Shown: positions 5,413 to 15,203 of the stretch, in pieces
Layout of the letters: the number at the start of each line of letters is the position of its first letter
Numbering within the stretch: position 1 is the stretch's first letter
Assembly: GCF_010726245.1 (NCBI RefSeq)
Contig: NZ_AP022561.1
Coordinates: forward strand, 2,790,001-2,854,000
DNA from: Mycolicibacterium aichiense
GTDB taxonomy: Bacteria; Actinomycetota; Actinomycetes; Mycobacteriales; Mycobacteriaceae
Direction: 5' to 3'
DNA length: 64,000 bases
Program-made: the position numbers and the translations under genes
The notes under the pieces: generated by a model
Seen by the model: the letters and a program-made list of their open reading frames with translations, nothing else
The model's database searches: none
Told to the model about the DNA's origin: nothing

Positions 5413-6000
5413 ATGCACACCAGAGAGCGAATTCTCAAAGCGGCCGCGGAGATGATCGCTGAAGACGCGACCACCACGCTCAGCGTTCGGGCGGTCGCGG
5501 CGCGCGCCGGCGTGAGCACCGGGTCGCTGCGGTTCCACTTTCCCACCCAGCGCGCTCTCCGCGACGAAGTGCTGACCAGGATCTATCAGCACTTCATCCC
5601 GGACGATCCGATCCGCGACTCGTCTCGGCCGGCACGGGATCGGTTGGTGGACTGCCTGCGACAGGTGCTTGCCGCGGCCGGCGTCGGCGACGAAGCCCGA
5701 ACGGCTTGGAGTGCTGTGTATCAACAATTCATTGCACCTGAACCCAGCGCGAAAGTCCGGACGGCATATCGGGCCTACGAACGGGTGTCCGCGGATCGCG
5801 TCGAGTACTGGCTGGGCGTGCTGGCTGACGAAGGAGCCCTTCCCCGAGAGGATTTCGCCCCGAAGGTGCAGTTCCTGCTGACCGTTCTTAACGGCCTATC
5901 GGTGCAGCGCGCGCTACCGTCCGGGGAATCGGTCCTGCAGGCCGAAACCGAGACGCTCTACATTGCCGCCGACGCGGTGCTCGGGTCCGGCTCGCCCTGA
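5413..6000 (+). CDS. TetR/AcrR family regulator
   Basis: 195 residues. The N-terminal DNA-binding domain runs to about residue 50 with GVSTGSLRFHFPTQRAL as the recognition helix region; the remainder is a helical ligand domain. A GAAGAAGGG ribosome-binding-type stretch precedes the ATG at 5413. It is paired with the divergent SpoIIM-like membrane protein through the palindrome at 5328-5367. Its 3' end overlaps the convergent XRE regulator by 43 bp. Confidence 0.85.
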   Translation: MHTRERILKAAAEMIAEDATTTLSVRAVAARAGVSTGSLRFHFPTQRALRDEVLTRIYQHFIPDDPIRDSSRPARDRLVDCLRQVLAAAGVGDEARTAWSAVYQQFIAPEPSAKVRTAYRAYERVSADRVEYWLGVLADEGALPREDFAPKVQFLLTVLNGLSVQRALPSGESVLQAETETLYIAADAVLGSGSP

Positions 6001-6851
6001 GCGCTCGCCCACGACGCCAGCCTGGCCAGCCTGTCCGCGGACGGCCCTCCCTTTGCGGTGTAGACGTTCAATTGCATGCCCGGATCGGTCGGAAGCTCCA
6101 TGGACTCGAAATTGAGCTCGAGCCGGCCTACCACCGGATGGTTGACACTCTTGCTCCCATGCCCGTGCAGTCGCACGTCCTGAGCTGCCCATTGCTGCCG
6201 GAATAGCTCACTGCACGTTGATAGTTCGCCTACCAAGGCGATGAGTTCCTCGTCGTGGGGGCTGCGGCCAACTTCCATGCGCAACACGGCGGCCGCATTT
6301 CGCGTTGCCTGGTCGTAGTCGACGAAGAAGCTCCGCGCCTCGACGGGACGCAGATACAGGAACCGGATGGTGTTGGCCGGCCGCCGCGGGTCGGCGAGCA
6401 CCGGTGAATACAGCGCGCGGCCGAGCCGATTCATGGCGAGCACGTCGTGGCGCCCATTGCGAATCAATGCCGGCGCACCGGTAATGGCGTCGAGCACCTC
6501 GTGCAGTGCCGGACGCACTGTCATGGGAGGTACGGTGTGCCGTCGACGGTCGGGTGCGGCGGATTGCCGTGCGAGATGGAACAGGTGGTCGCGCTCCGCA
6601 TCGTCGAGTTGTAGCGCGGTGCCCAGCGCGTCGAGCACACCATCCGAGGTGCCTGCCAGGCTGCCGCGCTCAATGCGTACGTAGTACTCGACGGAGACCC
6701 CGGCCAGGAGCGCCACCTCCTCTCGACGCAAACCCTTGACCCGGCGTCTCCCCCCGTAGGCGGGCAGACCGGCCATCTCAGGTGCGATACGGGCGCGACG
6801 AGATCGCAGGAACTCCCGGATCTCGGTGCGCAGATCTAGCGTGACGTCCAT
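5958..6851 (-). CDS. XRE-family regulator with MmyB-type ligand domain
   Basis: 297 residues. Residues 1-90 are an XRE helix-turn-helix with the characteristic GLRREEVALLAGVSVEYYVRIERG block. The C-terminal two thirds is the MmyB-like ligand-binding domain (PALIRNGRHDVLAMN, then FHPVVG-like HPVVGRLELNFESMELP). This architecture often sits next to a short-chain dehydrogenase, and here it starts 38 bp downstream of the SDR at 6890-7684 on the same strand, so the two are probably co-transcribed. An upstream-extended frame to 7373 was rejected because it lies inside the SDR gene. Its end overlaps the convergent TetR gene. Confidence 0.85.
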   Translation of the reverse strand: MDVTLDLRTEIREFLRSRRARIAPEMAGLPAYGGRRRVKGLRREEVALLAGVSVEYYVRIERGSLAGTSDGVLDALGTALQLDDAERDHLFHLARQSAAPDRRRHTVPPMTVRPALHEVLDAITGAPALIRNGRHDVLAMNRLGRALYSPVLADPRRPANTIRFLYLRPVEARSFFVDYDQATRNAAAVLRMEVGRSPHDEELIALVGELSTCSELFRQQWAAQDVRLHGHGSKSVNHPVVGRLELNFESMELPTDPGMQLNVYTAKGGPSADRLARLASWASAQGEPDPSTASAAM

Positions 6852-6889
6852 GCGTCCACCGTAGGCCGCACGACGAAGGGCAGGCGGGC

Positions 6890-7684
6890 TCACGCGGTCG
6901 TGGCGATCCCTCCATCGACGGGTACGACCGCGCCCGTCAGATAGCCGCCCGCCCGGCTGGAGAGGAATACGGCGACACCTGCCATATCGTCGTCGCGGCC
7001 GATCCGGCGAAGTGGGGCCGACGCCGCGATCGCCTCGCCGAGCTCGTCGAGAGTTGCCGCCATCATCGTCGACGGGAACGGTCCCGGCGCCACCGCGTTC
7101 ACCGTGATGTGCTGCGGGCCCAGTTCCTTGGCGAGCACTCTGGTGAGTTGATGCAGTGCGGCCTTGCTGCTGGAGTACGAGTAATTGGGCCGTGCCGGAA
7201 TGTGGATGGCGGCGATGCTGCCGATGTTGATGATCCGCGCTGGATCGTCGGCGGTCCCAGCGCTGTGCAGCGCCGGCAGTAGCGCCTGCACCAACCAGAA
7301 TGGCGACTTCAGATTGAGGTCGAGGACCGTGTCCCAGGCGGCATCCGGGAACGTCTCCAATGGCTCGTCCCACATCGCGCCCGCATTGTTGACAAGGATG
7401 TCGAGATTCTCCGAGTCTGCCGTGACGAGCTCAGCGAGGCGCTCGCACTCCTCGTGCCGCGACAGATCAGCAGGGACCGCCATCACCTCACCGAATTCGG
7501 ACAGCTGGTCCCGGGCTTGCGCGCACGCAGCGGGGTCGCGTGAGCTGATCACCACGCGGGCGCCTGCTTGGAGAAGCCCCCGCGCGATCATCATGCCGAT
7601 GCCCCTGGTGCCCCCGGTCACCAGGGCGCGCTTCCCGCTCAGGTCGAAAAGTTCTGCATGCGTATGAAATTGGCGGTCGGCCAC
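6890..7684 (-). CDS. short-chain dehydrogenase/reductase (SDR)
   Basis: 264 residues, classical SDR. It has a Rossmann TGGTRGIG cofactor motif (about 22-29), the NNAG motif, a catalytic Ser in the IINIGSIAA strand, the YSSSK catalytic Tyr/Lys, and a C-terminal PVDGG. Substrate is unknown; the TGGxRGIG type with a basic residue fits NADP(H) or NAD(H). The GTG at 7684 follows GAGAAGGG, a good ribosome binding site. It leads a two-gene unit with the MmyB-type regulator just downstream. Confidence 0.85.
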   Translation of the reverse strand: MADRQFHTHAELFDLSGKRALVTGGTRGIGMMIARGLLQAGARVVISSRDPAACAQARDQLSEFGEVMAVPADLSRHEECERLAELVTADSENLDILVNNAGAMWDEPLETFPDAAWDTVLDLNLKSPFWLVQALLPALHSAGTADDPARIINIGSIAAIHIPARPNYSYSSSKAALHQLTRVLAKELGPQHITVNAVAPGPFPSTMMAATLDELGEAIAASAPLRRIGRDDDMAGVAVFLSSRAGGYLTGAVVPVDGGIATTA

Positions 7685-7858: not shown

Positions 7859-8182
7859 TCAACTCGGCATAGCAGCTTTGATGACGTCAGCTTGTTTGCG
7901 GGCCAGGTCAAGGATGACATCGCGAGGAGTGGGATTGCCCGGCGCGCTGTCGATCTCCAGGTTGACCAGCACCCGGCCCTGATTGAAGACCACTTCCGAA
8001 ATTTCCGACGCGCCCAACTTCGACGTATCGGCGCGGGTGCCCTGGAACAGGAATCCGTTGGATCCGACATCAATGGGTTCTGCCGTACTGCCGGCGATCT
8101 GTTGGGCGATGGCCTGTTTCATCGGGTCTATCGTGCCGGCCGCTGCAGCTTCATCCGCCAGGACCGGCAGGCTCACCACCAC
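7859..8182 (-). pseudogene. C-terminal fragment of a secreted/lipoprotein-like protein
   Basis: 107 codons from a GTG at 8182 after an upstream in-frame stop. The protein part (about residues 15-107) looks genuine: it contains EPIDVGSNGFLFQGTRADTS and a helical end, like the extracytoplasmic domain of small mycobacterial exported proteins. The N-terminus VVSLPVLADEAAAAG looks like the tail of a signal peptide without its basic start. Only 22 bp separate it from the preceding gene's stop, and the Shine-Dalgarno is weak. I read it as a 5'-truncated remnant. A short intact gene is the alternative. Family not identified. Confidence 0.4.
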
Positions 8183-8204: not shown

Positions 8205-9104
8205 TCATTCAGTGCGGCACCAAGTCCTCAGCTCCGTGACGGCGAGGAACGCGGCCCGCCCGATCGCCGCATCGACGATGGGCAACGACAGATCCGAGCG
8301 TGCTGCGCGGGTGAAAATCGACACCGCTATCGGCACCTCCCCGGGGATCTCAACAACGGCTGCCTCGTTGCGGATCGGTCCGATGGTTCCGGTCTTACCC
8401 GCCACGATGACATCGGCGAACGGAAAGCCGGACCGGATTCGGTGGGGCCAAATCTGTTGCGCCAGAATCGTCCGCATCTCGTGACAGCTGCGCGGGGAGG
8501 CTGCGTCGTCGGTCCAGATCGCGCTCAGCACAGCGTTGATGTCGGCAGCGCTCGTCGCGGTCGTGTACGCAGGATCGAACGCAGCGCTGTCGTGAATACT
8601 GTTGTTGCTGGCCAACAGTCCCACCGCTTCGGTAAGCGTCAGCGCGCCGGCATCATGGATGATCTGTTGCTGTAGGGCTGCAGTTCCGCCGACCACGCGC
8701 GTCGATGCGAGCCCGAGGTCGGCAATCACGGCGTCGATCGGATCCAGCCCGAGGGCGCCGAGGATGATGTCCGCCGCGCCGTTGTCCGATAGCACCATCA
8801 TCATTCGGGCCAAGTCCAGCCACGACAGCGTGACGGGATCGCTGAACAGACTCAACCCGGTAGGCCCGGGCGTGCAATCTGCCGGCACGACGCGGACCGT
8901 GGCGTGCGCGTCGAGGATTCCAGAATCGAAGGCACGCGCCAGCGCAACAAGGACGATCAGCTTGTACACCGATGCGGCGACTACGGGTTCGTCGCCGCCG
9001 ATATCCACCAGGCTGTCCGGCCGGCCGATGGCCTCCGCTCGCAGCCAGCCTTGGCACCCGGCATCCACAAAGACATCGTTGATATTTCGGACTACGTTGC
9101 TCAT
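8205..9104 (-). CDS. BlaB-like cytosolic serine hydrolase of the beta-lactamase/PBP fold
   Basis: 299 residues. The three motifs of penicillin-recognising serine enzymes are present in order and spacing: S45-V-Y-K48, S106-D-N108 and K237-T-G. I see no Glu in an ExxLN omega-loop motif, which class A beta-lactamases use for deacylation, and no signal peptide or lipobox, so the product is probably cytosolic. It overlaps the upstream LysR gene by ATGA (start 9104, stop at 9101), implying translational coupling. In Streptomyces cacaoi, BlaA (LysR) and BlaB (an SxxK-type protein) are encoded together, opposite the beta-lactamase gene they control. This locus has the same layout. The role is therefore more likely regulatory than antibiotic hydrolysis. 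Confidence 0.75.
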   Translation of the reverse strand: MSNVVRNINDVFVDAGCQGWLRAEAIGRPDSLVDIGGDEPVVAASVYKLIVLVALARAFDSGILDAHATVRVVPADCTPGPTGLSLFSDPVTLSWLDLARMMMVLSDNGAADIILGALGLDPIDAVIADLGLASTRVVGGTAALQQQIIHDAGALTLTEAVGLLASNNSIHDSAAFDPAYTTATSAADINAVLSAIWTDDAASPRSCHEMRTILAQQIWPHRIRSGFPFADVIVAGKTGTIGPIRNEAAVVEIPGEVPIAVSIFTRAARSDLSLPIVDAAIGRAAFLAVTELRTWCRTE

Positions 9105-9982
9105 GTTCTGTTCCGCAACAGCTCTCGATCGAGCGCGTGGACGAGATCGCCCAGCTCGCGACCGGGTGCGGTCACTATCCGCACGCGCAATGCGACCTCC
9201 TCGACGAGCATTCGCAGATGGTTTGTTCCGGTGTGGACCGTCGCGGTTGGGGTCGCTAGCCCGAAGCACGTCCCTGTCGCGACCATGGCGCTCACGTCGC
9301 GGTGGGTAGTTGCCGGGTGAAGAGAACTGTCAAGCCCGTGCCGGCGCAGCCCGTCCATCAGCAGGTCGTGGGCAGGTGGGTTGTCCTCCCGTGGAGTGGT
9401 CGCCAGTGTCAGATCGCTCAGCATCTGGGCGCGCGGACTCCTGGTGCTCGCGACTCGATGCCCCGACGGCACAACGACATTGCGATTCACCGCGATAATC
9501 GGGCCGGCGTCCAGGTCCGCGAGAACTGCCGGGTGCGCCACCACAGCGATGTCGATGATCCCACGGCGGAGATCGGCGAGCAGGGCCGTGGTGCCCTTGG
9601 TGACGGTCGTGAGTGGAGCGTCGCTCTGAGTCATCGCAGCGCGCAACGCTACTGTGCAGCGGGACAGGATCTCGTCGTCGAGTTCCGGGATCGCGCCCCA
9701 GCGTAGCCCAGCGGCGGCGCCGAACAGCTGAGCGGCATCAGCGAGCAGACGCGTGGAGTCGTCAACGATCAGCCGCGCGCGTGGCAGCAGCGCTGCCCCG
9801 GCCTCGGTCAGCGTCGCACCGCTGGACGTCCGGTCGACCAACTGCAATCCAAGATGCCGTTCCAGGCGTCGCAGACCTTGCGAGACAGGCGGCTGAGTCA
9901 CGCCGAGGCTTGCGGCGGCCCGGCCGAAATGCCGGTGCTCGGCAACCGCCACGAAGTACCGCAAGTGTCGAATGAGGTCCAC
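9101..9982 (-). CDS. LysR-family regulator, BlaA/AmpR-like
   Basis: 293 residues from a GTG at 9982 that gives the usual LysR opening (VDLIRHLRYFVAVAEHRHFGRAA, first 20 residues characteristic). The winged HTH spans about 5-65 (SLGVTQPPVSQGLRRLERHLG), and the periplasmic-binding-type effector domain follows. A frame to 10069 was rejected: the added sequence is basic and would overlap the divergent promoter. It is divergent from a class A beta-lactamase at 10146 and coupled to the BlaB-like gene at 8205, so induction of the lactamase by beta-lactam or cell-wall stress is the likely job. Confidence 0.85.
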   Translation of the reverse strand: MDLIRHLRYFVAVAEHRHFGRAAASLGVTQPPVSQGLRRLERHLGLQLVDRTSSGATLTEAGAALLPRARLIVDDSTRLLADAAQLFGAAAGLRWGAIPELDDEILSRCTVALRAAMTQSDAPLTTVTKGTTALLADLRRGIIDIAVVAHPAVLADLDAGPIIAVNRNVVVPSGHRVASTRSPRAQMLSDLTLATTPREDNPPAHDLLMDGLRRHGLDSSLHPATTHRDVSAMVATGTCFGLATPTATVHTGTNHLRMLVEEVALRVRIVTAPGRELGDLVHALDRELLRNRT

Positions 9983-10145
9983 GCTTACCCATTCAACACG
10001 ACCACGACGCCGGGCCCAGATCGCCGGAGGTACCTTGTCGTCGGCCAAGATTGGCACTCCTAGATGCACTGATTCACAATCGCTATGGCTGTCGCCGGCC
10101 CGCAGACTTGGCTACGGCACCGCCGGCCGTGCTTCGGTATCGGCC
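9983..10145. promoter_or_regulatory. divergent LysR / beta-lactamase control region
   Basis: The 163-bp gap between the LysR and beta-lactamase starts must hold both promoters and the LysR box. LysR sites follow T-N11-A, but several weak candidates fit and none is compelling, so I do not mark one. Confidence 0.45.
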
Positions 10146-11045
10146 ATGACAGCACACCTGACCCGGCGCCAGGCCCTGGCGGGACTGGCCACAATCGCAG
10201 CGCTGACAGCGTGCCGCAGGGCCGCCGCGGATCCTGTCCCCCGACACACCGCTTCGCTTGACCTCACCCCGATCGAGGATCGCTATTCGGCACGCGTGGG
10301 CATGTATGCCCTCGACCTCGACACGGGCGGCTCTCTCGAGCACCGTGCGGACACCCCATTTTCGATGTGCTCGACCTTCAAGACCTATGCCGTGGCCCGG
10401 GTGTTGCAATTGGCCGAACTCGGTCGACGGGATCTGGCGATGACACAACAGATCGCAGCGTCCGACATCGTCGAGAACTCACCGGTCACCAGCGCCCATG
10501 TCGGTCGGTCGATGCGCCTAGACGAGTTGTGCTCGGCGGCATTGATCAACTCCGACAACGCCGCCGGCAATCTTCTGTTGCGATGCATCGGCGGGCCGCC
10601 AGAGATCACCACCTTCGCGCGCAGTGTCGGTGACGACCGGAGCCGGCTGGACCGTTGGGAAACCGAACTGAACGCTGCGGTGCCCGGGGATCCGCGCGAC
10701 ACGACGACTCCGCGCGCCCTTTCAGCGGGCTACCGAGAAGTGTTGACCGGCAAAGTGTTAAACGACGGACACCGCGAGCAGATGCTGGGCTGGATGAGCC
10801 GGAACGCCACGTCGGAGAAGCGTTTCCGAGCAGGTCTGCCCACGGGCTGGACCAGCGCCGACAAGACCGGCGCTGGAAGTTTTGGCTCCACCAACGATGC
10901 CGGATTGCTCAGCGGGCCCAACGGGCAACGGATCATCATGGCCGTCCTCACCCGCTCGCGCGACGACGAGCCCGATGCGCCACCCCTCAACAACGCCATC
11001 GCCGAGACGGTGCGACTCACTCTGGCAGCATTCGATCGTCAGTGA
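10146..11045 (+). CDS. class A beta-lactamase, Tat-exported
   Basis: 299 residues. All class A hallmarks are present: S76-T-F-K79 (SxxK), S136-D-N138, E172-x-x-x-N176 (the E166/N170 omega-loop pair) and K240-T-G. The leader starts MTAHLTRRQALAG, a twin-arginine motif, and continues to LTAC at 20-23, so it is a Tat substrate and possibly a lipoprotein. The start at 10146 places the RR motif near the N-terminus; the frame is open upstream to 9972 but that region is the divergent promoter. It hydrolyses penicillins and related drugs in the periplasm-like space. It is controlled presumably by the divergent LysR together with the BlaB-like protein. Confidence 0.92.
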   Translation: MTAHLTRRQALAGLATIAALTACRRAAADPVPRHTASLDLTPIEDRYSARVGMYALDLDTGGSLEHRADTPFSMCSTFKTYAVARVLQLAELGRRDLAMTQQIAASDIVENSPVTSAHVGRSMRLDELCSAALINSDNAAGNLLLRCIGGPPEITTFARSVGDDRSRLDRWETELNAAVPGDPRDTTTPRALSAGYREVLTGKVLNDGHREQMLGWMSRNATSEKRFRAGLPTGWTSADKTGAGSFGSTNDAGLLSGPNGQRIIMAVLTRSRDDEPDAPPLNNAIAETVRLTLAAFDRQ

Positions 11046-11129: not shown

Positions 11130-12782
11130 TCAACCGGTGGCGGCGAAAGGAGTGGCTCTCGCGTCTGAGCGCGAGCGAGAGCTCTGCACAGAGGGAGTCC
11201 GGTAGAGGCGACGATGCACAGTGACGCGGGACGGCCTCGGCTCCTGCGGTGCTTGACATCTGCTGATCGGGCCTGTGTACGAGAGCTTTTCGCTGGGGCG
11301 CAACACTGCGGGGATGGTCATCAGCAGGATCTGCAGATCTAGCGCGAGCGACCAGTTCTCGATATAGAAGTTGTCCCACTCGACACGATCATCAATGGAC
11401 GTCTGGCCTCGCAGTCCGTGCACTTGCGCCCAGCCGGTCATCCCTGCCTTGACGCGGTGCCGTTCGCCGTACCGCCGGATCTGTGAGTCGAAACGCTCTA
11501 CGTACTCCGGGCGTTCTGGGCGGGGCCCGACAAGGCTCATGTCTCCCCTGATCACGTTGAGGAGTTGTGGGAGTTCGTCAAGGGAGCTCACGCGCATCAG
11601 TTTGCCGATTCTGGTGCGCCGGTCGGCACCCTCTACCCCACCCGGCGCCCTGCCGTCGTGGACGACGAACGCCGTGTCACGAGGCCGGGGCATGCGCATC
11701 GATCTGAACTTCAGGCAGTCGAACACAATTCCATCCCGGCCGACTCGGGGCTGACGGAAGAAGATCGGACCCGGTGAGGACAGTCGCACAGCAGCCATCA
11801 GGAACAGGAACAGTGGCGAGATGACGGTGAGGACGGCGGTCGCGATGACGCGATCACTGATGTGCTTGGTGGTGAATTGCCAGCTCCGCGGATTGGTGCT
11901 GGACAACGTCATCACGGGCAGACCACCGACATAATCCATGCGGCATCGCTGCCCGATCGTGTCGAACATCCGCGGAACGATCCATACCGTCAGCCCAGCG
12001 AGGCGCGCAGTCTTCATCGCCGAAACCAGATCCTTGTCCCTGGTCCTGGAGAAGGCCACCACCAGGGCCTCTGCCCCCGTGGCCCTGATCGCATCGGCGA
12101 TGGTGGCCGGTGTGCCAACCGCAGGAATGGGGCAGTCCCCCGCTGACGCGGCCCACGGCGCGTCCGCGTCGACCAGGCCGACCGGCCGGATGCCGTATCG
12201 AGGGTTGTCACGGAAGCGTTTCGCGAGATGACAGGCGATCTCGCCGTTGCCCATGATCAAAGTCGGTGACTGCAGGACCTGGTTGCGACGCAGTGCGCGC
12301 TGCACGACAACCGCGAACAACCTCCCGATCGGCAGACCCATTGCGGTCGTCAGCCACACCTGTGCAACAGTGTCGCCCAAGTCGCCGGCGATGTCGGCGA
12401 ACGCCATTCCCGCCAGCAGCAGCATGGCCGCCAGCGCCGCAGCTGCCTGAACAGACATGAACTCGCCGATGAGGGTGTCGTGCAACTTGGGTCGATACGA
12501 CGCGCGGGCAGCCAAGATGACAACGACCAACGGCGCATAACACGCCATCATCCAGAGCGGCGGCATCGGCAGTCCGGCGTTGTGCGCCAAGCTCAAACCG
12601 ATAGCGGAGGCGGCGGACGCCGAAGTCAGGTCCGCGGCAAATGTGATCGCCAGGCCCACAGTCCCTTTCGTCGGCCCAAGACGACCAGGTGCAGTGTGCG
12701 AGGTGCGGCCCGGCAGCCCCGGTGAAAGGCCGCTACTCGGGAGCGATCCACGGTCACTAGCGCTCTGCGCCATATCCGACAC
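11130..12782 (-). CDS. polyprenyl-phosphate sugar-1-phosphate transferase
   Basis: 550 residues, the size of the WbaP/CpsE group. Four or five N-terminal membrane helices (about 45-165) precede a Rossmann-like CoA-binding/flavodoxin-like domain (TLIMGNGEIACHLAKRF). A further helix (about 310-335) leads into the bacterial sugar-transferase catalytic domain, with FRQPRVGRDG, LKFRSM, RVSSLDELPQLLNV and the hallmark LVGPRPERP. It transfers a hexose-1-phosphate to decaprenyl or undecaprenyl phosphate, the first step of a surface polysaccharide. The C-terminus carries about 60 extra Arg/Ser-rich residues. No other polysaccharide genes are adjacent, which is unusual. Confidence 0.88.
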   Translation of the reverse strand: MSDMAQSASDRGSLPSSGLSPGLPGRTSHTAPGRLGPTKGTVGLAITFAADLTSASAASAIGLSLAHNAGLPMPPLWMMACYAPLVVVILAARASYRPKLHDTLIGEFMSVQAAAALAAMLLLAGMAFADIAGDLGDTVAQVWLTTAMGLPIGRLFAVVVQRALRRNQVLQSPTLIMGNGEIACHLAKRFRDNPRYGIRPVGLVDADAPWAASAGDCPIPAVGTPATIADAIRATGAEALVVAFSRTRDKDLVSAMKTARLAGLTVWIVPRMFDTIGQRCRMDYVGGLPVMTLSSTNPRSWQFTTKHISDRVIATAVLTVISPLFLFLMAAVRLSSPGPIFFRQPRVGRDGIVFDCLKFRSMRMPRPRDTAFVVHDGRAPGGVEGADRRTRIGKLMRVSSLDELPQLLNVIRGDMSLVGPRPERPEYVERFDSQIRRYGERHRVKAGMTGWAQVHGLRGQTSIDDRVEWDNFYIENWSLALDLQILLMTIPAVLRPSEKLSYTGPISRCQAPQEPRPSRVTVHRRLYRTPSVQSSRSRSDARATPFAATG

Positions 12783-13652: not shown

Positions 13653-15203
13653 CTACAGCCGATCGCGGATTCGGTCGCGATACGAGCGCCCGTCCGGGTC
13701 GTAGATCATGCGGTACAGGGGCTCCGCCCACACGCGGGTCCGCCAGCCGAGACGCTCTGGCTTGTGCCGCCGCAAGCGACCCGGTGGCCTCTCCCCCTGA
13801 CATCCCGACAGATACCACGCGTCAAGTGCCTCCGCCGCGGCGACGATCTCGCGTACCGCGGTGACCGGGTCGACCAGATCTCCGTCCGCGCTCCCATCAG
13901 CCGGCCGGTCCAGGTGCTCACGCAGGAGTCGCAGTCTCAGGTCGCGAGCGAAGATGCCCTCGGAATCGAGTACCGCACAGGATAGTTCGCTGTCGTGGGT
14001 CCAGGACCGCCGGTTCAGGTTGTCGCTACCGACGCAGGCCCAGATGTCGTCGATCACGCAGACCTTCGCATGCACGTATACCGGTGTGCCACGGTGATTC
14101 TCGACGTCGAAGATGTGGACACGCTCCGGACTCGCAGCCTGACATGTCGCAATCGCCTGCCAGCGGCCGACCTGGTTCGGCGGCAGTTGCAACCGACCGT
14201 CGACGTCGGGGTGGCGCGGGATCACCGCCACCAGGTGGAGATCGGGGTTGGTGCGCAGTGCGTGGGCGAACAAGGTGGCCACCCGTGCCGACCACAGATA
14301 TTGGTCCTCGACGTAGATCAGTCGGCGGGCGCGGGGTACGACTTTGTTGTACGCGCGGGCGATGCTGCGCTCCCCCCGGGGCGCAAAGGCGTACCGGAAG
14401 TGCGCATCCGGGTAAGTGCGCAACACCTGCACGGTGTGAGGTCCACACGCCGGCGGATCTGGTGGTTGTTCCGGTAGCCGGTCCGCCGAGAGGTCCGCGC
14501 CTCGCAACTTGTCCATCACCCAGGCGACGGGCGACAACGCGTCGAGCGGCGTCGGATCCTTCCAGCGTTCCCGGAAGGTGGTGTCGAGTACCCCGACGGC
14601 CGGCCCGCGGATCTGCAGCTGCACGTCATGCCATGGCGGAGTGCTCCCATAGCATTCGGCCATCTGCACCGCCTGCGGGTCACCCTCGTGCGATTCGTCA
14701 TCGCGGCGGGAATGGCACAGGTCGATGCCGCCGGCAAATGCGATATCGCGTTGGGGCGCTTCGGGATGCCGAATCACGACCAGTTTCTGGTGATGCGATC
14801 CGCCCACCCGCACGCGCTGATCCAACAGCACCTCGCCGCCGGCCGCTTCGATGGCCTCACCCAGATGCTGGTTCTCCTCTTCGCTGTACTGAAACTTGTC
14901 CAGATGCGATCGCCACACCAGGCCCTTGACCACCACGCCGCGTTTCGCGGCCTGGCAGAACAGGTCCCGGATCGTCGGGCCGCCGTCGCGCAGGAGTTCG
15001 TCGGGGTCGCCACGCCAGTCGGTGAAGAAGACGTAGTCGCCTGCACGTAGGGCCTCCACTTCGGCGACCAGCCGTTCGAAATAGGTGGCACCGTGAACGA
15101 GCGGTTCGGCGCGGTTGCCCTCCGACCATGCCGGTATCCGGGCGGCGGGGTTACCTCGCTCGTCACGGGTCAGGAACCAATCGGCCGGCGTCACCACGCC
15201 CAT
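13653..15203 (-). CDS. phospholipase D family protein
   Basis: 516 residues with two HKD-type motifs. The second, H378-A-K380-V-C-V-I-D385, is complete and followed by GSDNLNRRS. The first, H138-Q-K140, has Arg145 where the Asp normally stands, a variation seen in some cytosolic PLD relatives. No signal peptide is evident (starts MGVVTPADWF), so it acts inside the cell or at the inner leaflet. Likely substrates are phosphodiester lipids such as phosphatidylglycerol or cardiolipin. It is divergent from the SRPBCC gene at 15276. Confidence 0.85.
   Translation of the reverse strand: MGVVTPADWFLTRDERGNPAARIPAWSEGNRAEPLVHGATYFERLVAEVEALRAGDYVFFTDWRGDPDELLRDGGPTIRDLFCQAAKRGVVVKGLVWRSHLDKFQYSEEENQHLGEAIEAAGGEVLLDQRVRVGGSHHQKLVVIRHPEAPQRDIAFAGGIDLCHSRRDDESHEGDPQAVQMAECYGSTPPWHDVQLQIRGPAVGVLDTTFRERWKDPTPLDALSPVAWVMDKLRGADLSADRLPEQPPDPPACGPHTVQVLRTYPDAHFRYAFAPRGERSIARAYNKVVPRARRLIYVEDQYLWSARVATLFAHALRTNPDLHLVAVIPRHPDVDGRLQLPPNQVGRWQAIATCQAASPERVHIFDVENHRGTPVYVHAKVCVIDDIWACVGSDNLNRRSWTHDSELSCAVLDSEGIFARDLRLRLLREHLDRPADGSADGDLVDPVTAVREIVAAAEALDAWYLSGCQGERPPGRLRRHKPERLGWRTRVWAEPLYRMIYDPDGRSYRDRIRDRL

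Follow-up and report, generated by a model that had tools for sequence, protein, structure and literature searches.

How is a class A beta-lactamase gene controlled in a mycobacterium when it lies divergently from a gene for a LysR-type regulator and from a second gene of the penicillin-recognising fold? This question is raised by a locus of Mycolicibacterium aichiense that is located within the 64,000-nucleotide stretch that we analysed (the window; C1:2790001-2854000 of a 5.93-Mb single-contig genome). The lysR gene (9101..9982, minus strand, GTG start) encodes a BlaA-like LysR-type regulator of 293 residues, and its stop codon overlaps the start of the middle, blaB-like gene (8205..9104, minus strand) in an ATGA read from the sequence (9101..9104, minus strand). 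The middle gene encodes a predicted cytosolic protein of 299 residues with the penicillin-recognising fold. A divergent regulatory region of 163 bp (9983..10145) separates lysR from bla (10146..11045, plus strand), whose product is a class A beta-lactamase, predicted to be a lipoprotein exported by the twin-arginine translocation (Tat) system, with S-x-x-K, SDN, RWETELN and KTG motifs. The coordinates, strands and overlap of the three genes had been given in an earlier, sequence-only reading of this DNA, and are borne out by the translations and the sequence; Pfam and NCBIfam matches identify one product as a LysR protein and another as a class A enzyme.

That reading had likened the trio to the system of Streptomyces cacaoi, for which passages of PMC3610667 describe control of the beta-lactamase BlaL by a LysR-type activator and the penicillin-binding protein (PBP) BlaB. 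By analogy, we consider it probable that the locus is an induction module of the BlaA-BlaB-BlaL type, in which acylated BlaB would act via LysR on bla. A wider view, held with slightly less confidence, is based on a predicted operator, on co-evolution and on output exchange taken together: LysR-BlaB would be a portable actinobacterial beta-lactam-sensing module that has switched outputs more than once (class A or class D-like lactamases, or class B PBPs often with a MecA_N domain), with the operator kept before most of the PBP genes. It would thus be an independent, cytosolic counterpart of BlaR1-BlaI/MecR1-MecI that is present in a minority of mycobacteria.

The middle protein carries SVYK at residues 45-48, SDN at 106-108 and KTG at 237-239, as the sequence-only reading had noted; S45, K48, SDN and KTG are invariant across 22 relatives, and the Tyr of SVYK is not. 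Pfam assigns the protein to Beta-lactamase2 only (4.1e-44), and its score of 64 bits is below the cut-off of 200 of the class A equivalog NF033103 (NCBIfam). The same reading had seen neither an omega-loop Glu nor an export signal, whose presence would have refuted its interpretation, and we found neither. In a profile-profile alignment with class A enzymes (98.9%), Thr141 stands opposite the catalytic Glu (E172 of the window lactamase), that is, at the Glu166 position, and hydropathy analysis revealed no export segment, the maximum 12-residue Kyte-Doolittle mean within the first 40 residues being 0.62 versus 1.93 for the lactamase. The middle protein is hence predicted to be cytosolic. Among its relatives, the E..LN motif is present in 1 of 184 BlaB proteins, versus 120 of 130 neighbouring class A proteins, and SxxK, SDN and KTG are kept in 184, 164 and 180 of the 184 BlaB loci, respectively. 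When the 299-residue protein was compared with S. cacaoi BlaB as well as with class A enzymes, BlaB was the closest relative of solved structure: its entry (PDB 2wuq) is the best profile match (E 1.5e-44 over the full length of 2wuq) and also the top match by predicted fold (Foldseek, VIA-align). In a phylogenetic tree, BlaB proteins are set apart from 13 class A lactamases (support 100/99) and, with moderate support (87/83), from five long mycobacterial paralogues. As far as sequence comparison goes, this is direct evidence that the middle protein is homologous to S. cacaoi BlaB.

The synteny search proposed in the sequence-only reading showed that the trio is recurrent. An alignment of the middle protein served as the only query, and the named set consists of the best 80 of at least 478 relatives; it should be noted that the loci are not independent, and that some further loci are, judged by length, the same contigs as loci of this set (L139/L005, L145/L009, L148/L008 and L137/L072), which also affects some of the counts given below. 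Of the 80 named loci, 72 have the complete trio. In 61, bla is divergent from lysR-blaB, as in the window; in 11, lysR-blaB-bla are collinear; seven contain lysR-blaB without a class A bla gene; and in the remaining locus (L067) no lysR was recognised. Because the trio recurs in 72 of 80 loci that were found by the middle protein alone, its adjacency is more than chance. The start of blaB overlaps the stop of lysR in frame (ATGA or GTGA) in 95 of 102 lysR-blaB loci, a set that includes duplicates of one contig, although the overlapping start is perhaps not always the true one, as homology begins far downstream in some loci.

Of the organisms in the best 80, Mycolicibacterium rhodesiae DSM 44223 is the nearest; the two BlaB-like proteins share 91% identity. 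Within the genus, a full-length BlaB (E <1e-100) is encoded by 15 of 297 sampled genomes, this one included, and all 15 carry the three genes. A looser cut-off was passed by 292 of the 297, the further matches listed being mostly partial and lying in open frames of about 450-550 residues. An order-wide sample gave a match of <=1e-40 in 141 of 397 genomes and 33 of 85 genera, with adjacency known for the loci that were fetched. The pair adjoins class A lactamase genes in many records of Nocardia and Rhodococcus, N. cyriacigeorgica (L063, L066 and L078) among them. The same divergent trio is present in four presumed Streptomyces loci (L129, L287, L288 and L290), whose BlaB proteins are 72-78% identical to 2wuq; the S. 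cacaoi genome lay outside the searched set, and the closest of 392 is 78% identical to S. cacaoi BlaB. In L143, one of the 15 of the genus, the lysR and class A bla open reading frames (ORFs) are each split between two frames, possibly by decay or sequencing error. In a 3.3-Mb genome of the same genus, a short stretch resembling BlaB (C1:2397458-2397700, L100) is interrupted by three in-frame stops and looks like a decayed remnant.

The partnership of LysR and BlaB is reflected in their phylogenies. The lysR product has a Pfam HTH_1 domain (2.6e-23), and 40 BlaB-linked LysRs, 14 of them of the S. cacaoi type, form one group (96/85) when 11 further LysRs of this genome serve as the outgroup; the S. 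cacaoi-type LysRs in this tree are partners of related BlaBs, with S. cacaoi BlaA itself outside the comparison. A first tree, which had placed other LysRs between the two groups, contained fewer outgroups and one faulty row, and the rebuilt tree is used instead. Across the 124 three-gene loci, the correlation of patristic distances between LysR and BlaB is 0.988, versus 0.466 and 0.474 for the two with the lactamase, and the difference stays at 0.48-0.57 when loci are resampled. For the 98 window-type loci (BlaB score >330), the LysR-BlaB correlation is 0.926, and those with the lactamase are 0.628 and 0.649. LysR and BlaB evolve as a unit, and the lactamase is more freely exchanged.

Seven mycobacterial intergenic regions have in common a GATTC and a CTAT block that do not vary and are separated by 7 bases. 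Of 93 regions upstream of bla, 16 (11 divergent and 5 collinear) contain GATTC-N7-CTAT exactly, as against 0 of 20 shuffled sets. In the window, this corresponds to the predicted LysR operator TGATTCACAATCGCTATGG (10070..10088), which is of the T-N11-A palindrome class; the strict form YGATTC-N7-CTATSG is present once in the 5.93-Mb genome, at this very position. An ACTTGGC element (10106..10112, plus strand), located between the operator and the bla start, is partly conserved and may be a -35 region; a promoter scan of 9900-10200 gave a single consensus match, on which we do not rely. An unconstrained motif search seeded with the window drifted into lysR coding sequence and was replaced by an intergenic, palindrome-constrained search. 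Applied de novo to 78 dereplicated regions, the latter recovered CGATA-N9-TATCG-like sites with a log-likelihood of 417, versus 56-75 in four shuffles, which were run with fewer starting seeds. Sites of at least 10 bits are present in 67 of the 78 regions (shuffled mean 1.35, maximum 4), comprising 59 of 67 divergent and 8 of 11 collinear regions. Furthermore, when a model was built from 59 non-mycobacterial regions and applied to 16 mycobacterial ones that had been held out, 13 of these reached 10 bits, the shuffled mean being 0.10.

Loci in which the pair is kept and the output differs provide another line of evidence. Each of the seven named loci that have the pair without class A bla adjoins another beta-lactam-type gene, a PBP gene in six and a class D-like lactamase gene in one. 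The PBPs are of class B (PF00905), and are found in Williamsia (L046, L052 and L060), Speluncibacter (L055), Tsukamurella (L073) and Pseudonocardia xinjiangensis (L069), those of L046, L052, L060 and L069 having a MecA_N domain; the class D-like lactamase of Pseudonocardia sp. (L053) scores 233 bits with NF012161, below the cut-off of 250. PBP genes also adjoin the pair at L226 and at L228 and L232, which belong to one genus near Tsukamurella in the LysR tree. With an operator model built from class A promoters only, the best hit of the whole locus lies directly before the PBP gene in eight of nine loci, at 15.5-20.8 bits; as background, 10% of 132 loci have a hit of at least 15 bits somewhere outside bla upstream regions. 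Whole-locus scans did not find the operator in L226 (PBP) and L053 (class D-like). In another subclade, three presumed Streptomyces loci (L133, L293 and L294) have a MecA_N PBP gene divergent from lysR, without this operator. In L296, lysR and an ORF for an alpha/beta-hydrolase flank a strong operator-like palindrome (L296:6511-6529), which marks another possible output.

Taken by analogy with S. cacaoi, the circuit may function as follows. The overlap suggests that lysR and blaB would be expressed from one coupled transcript, and in the divergent intergenic region LysR would bind the palindrome at 10070-10088. A beta-lactam reaching the cytosol would acylate the SVYK serine of BlaB, and, to judge from class A and PBP-A chemistry, the adduct may be lasting because the deacylating Glu is absent. 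Acylated BlaB would then act on LysR, upon which the gene for the exported class A beta-lactamase would be transcribed. The suggestion in the sequence-only reading that the cytosolic SxxK protein is a sensor or co-regulator is thus supported in silico, by the homology to BlaB, the joint evolution of LysR and BlaB, and the shared predicted operator.

Several observations weigh against such an interpretation. The likeness to S. cacaoi is remote: the middle protein and S. cacaoi BlaB share about 24% identity, the 2wuq clade (100/98) is separate from the BlaB clade of the window (100/100), and window-type and S. cacaoi-type LysRs form separate clades within the BlaB-linked group. Because of these separate BlaB clades and the LysR grouping, the window pair is, on the evidence of the trees, a distant relative of BlaA-BlaB and no close copy. 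The operators differ as well, that of the window being CGATA-N9-TATCG-like and those of S. cacaoi-type loci ATGCCG-N3-CGGCAT-like (20 of 22 by posterior, without a shuffle control), with the same T-N11-A spacing. A posterior of >0.5 was obtained in 71 of 78 regions, which is not discriminating; because the shuffles gave 67-72, this count was dropped as evidence and scores were used. A site of 10 bits is lacking in 11 of the 78 regions, including three S. cacaoi-type loci and the mycobacterial L140, L144 and L152. When whole loci were scanned with the held-out model, the expected site was the top hit in 13 of 20 mycobacterial loci and ranked second in four, the window included, the other three ranks being 4, 17 and 21; within the 64 kb of the window, one site elsewhere scores 14.0 bits versus 13.4 for the expected site. 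The mechanism also assumes that beta-lactams gain access to the mycobacterial cytosol, and 4 of 184 BlaB proteins have a hydrophobic N-terminal stretch. Finally, 80 further loci, which we picked over the order and presumed Streptomyces and whose neighbours were tallied by eye, comprise 36 with class A bla, 5 with a PBP gene, 20 with a metallo-beta-lactamase (MBL)-fold gene and 19 with no recognised output, of which 16 also have no lysR within 3.5 kb. The view that every BlaB-like protein is a beta-lactam sensor was rejected on account of the 20 and 19 loci of the last two groups. As BlaB-like proteins are also encoded away from any beta-lactam gene, we restrict the functional claim to the BlaB clade that is linked to LysR and carries the operator. 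The MBL-fold neighbours belong to families f88 and f2, and in 12 of the 20 loci lysR is divergent from blaB-mbl; these loci (L237, L246-L251, L253-L259, L261-L265 and L271), with a BlaB-like protein and a LysR, apparently represent a different system.

Could the same genes be wired differently? LysR might sense a cell-wall fragment, as in the AmpR logic in which a LysR-type protein responds to a muropeptide, and the cytosolic BlaB would then be an enzyme, a DD-peptidase or similar, that makes or removes this fragment, so that beta-lactams would act indirectly. The conserved SxxK/SDN/KTG site counted above would suit an enzyme, and the fold of BlaB is also close to that of PBP-A, which parts of PMC11189452 describe as a DD-peptidase. 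On the other hand, S. cacaoi BlaB is termed a penicillin-binding protein in the title of a paper. We regard this possibility as unlikely, though it deserves to be kept in mind; as to the AmpR group, the 25 of 55 NCBIfam matches that were listed include no AmpR model.

The enzyme-like fold and motifs of BlaB would also suit a non-regulatory, accessory enzyme that is merely co-transcribed with lysR, LysR alone controlling bla. However, the LysR and BlaB trees agree far better with each other than either does with that of the lactamase, and loci with another output gene still have the pair, which makes a mere passenger improbable. Most improbable of all, in our opinion, is that the lactamase is constitutive or under a distant BlaI-like protein, the neighbouring pair acting on something else. 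The genome does contain one BlaI-like gene with an adjoining M56 peptidase ORF. Yet the interval from lysR to bla contains the predicted operator, which also precedes bla in the other gene order and whose strict form has no second copy in the genome. The BlaI-like gene, the only PF03965 match of the genome (C1:3006454-3006795; L115, L154), lies about 0.2 Mb from the trio and is followed by the M56 peptidase ORF, and neither lactamase gene is linked to it; the same PF03965 search did not find a BlaI repressor gene at the trio locus. Control from that distance is conceivable, and the circuit described here may either replace BlaI control or add to it.

An induction module of the BlaA-BlaB-BlaL type, as we prefer to read the locus, would resemble the S. 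cacaoi system in that a LysR and an SxxK protein are encoded beside a class A beta-lactamase, in a divergent gene order that the presumed Streptomyces relatives share. S. cacaoi BlaB is cytosolic, as is predicted for the window BlaB. The two systems differ in that the window BlaB has SDN and 2wuq has SDG. According to the title of a paper, S. cacaoi blaL and blaU are under one system. In staphylococci, one sensor-regulator family, BlaR1-BlaI/MecR1-MecI, can have a beta-lactamase or a MecA-type PBP as its output, and the LysR-BlaB pair likewise occurs next to genes for class A or class D-like lactamases or for PBPs. However, the staphylococcal systems consist of a repressor and a membrane metalloprotease sensor, whereas a LysR and a cytosolic SxxK protein are present here, which suggests a portable module of similar logic built of different parts. 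We know of no LysR partner of PBP-A (Tll2115, Thermosynechococcus). PBP-A resembles BlaB in having a class A-like fold without the omega-loop glutamate.

To our knowledge, the route by which the signal passes from the cytosolic penicillin-binding protein to the LysR regulator has not been resolved in S. cacaoi. The 124 LysR-BlaB-lactamase sets, together with the predicted operator and the natural output swaps, make this question testable. Moreover, because the pair adjoins class A bla genes in Nocardia and Rhodococcus and PBP genes in Williamsia and Tsukamurella, inducible beta-lactam tolerance in these genera may have been overlooked. The circuit in mycobacteria, or its PBP-linked form, appeared in none of the titles and abstract openings listed by a literature search that left subscription journals mostly outside. 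The operator, the co-evolution of LysR and BlaB and the output exchange add to the sequence-only reading, the exchanged outputs being a more novel reading than the window trio.

Regarding the lactamase itself, the product of 10146-11045 matches Pfam Beta-lactamase2 (6e-44) and Beta-lactamase (3.5e-26) and passes the class A model NF033103 with 272.6 bits (cut-off 200); a twin-arginine-like motif and a lipobox can be read directly in its N-terminus, MTAHLTRRQALAGLATIAALTAC. The same genome encodes a second class A beta-lactamase (C1:2043711-2044511; L004, L153) that is 53% identical, and no window-type operator site above 5.9 bits was found in the 9.5 kb around its gene. On the other side of the trio, an ORF of 107 residues (window 7859-8182, minus strand) follows blaB on the same strand after 22 bases and may be co-transcribed; it belongs to no Pfam family and has no match in the 19 mycobacterial loci compared. 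A sugar-transferase gene (11130-12782) adjoining bla was likewise not found in these 19 loci. TetR, SDR and PLD genes (window 5413-7684 and 13653-15203) flank the trio, and they do so in M. rhodesiae (L005) as well, with 88-92% identity.

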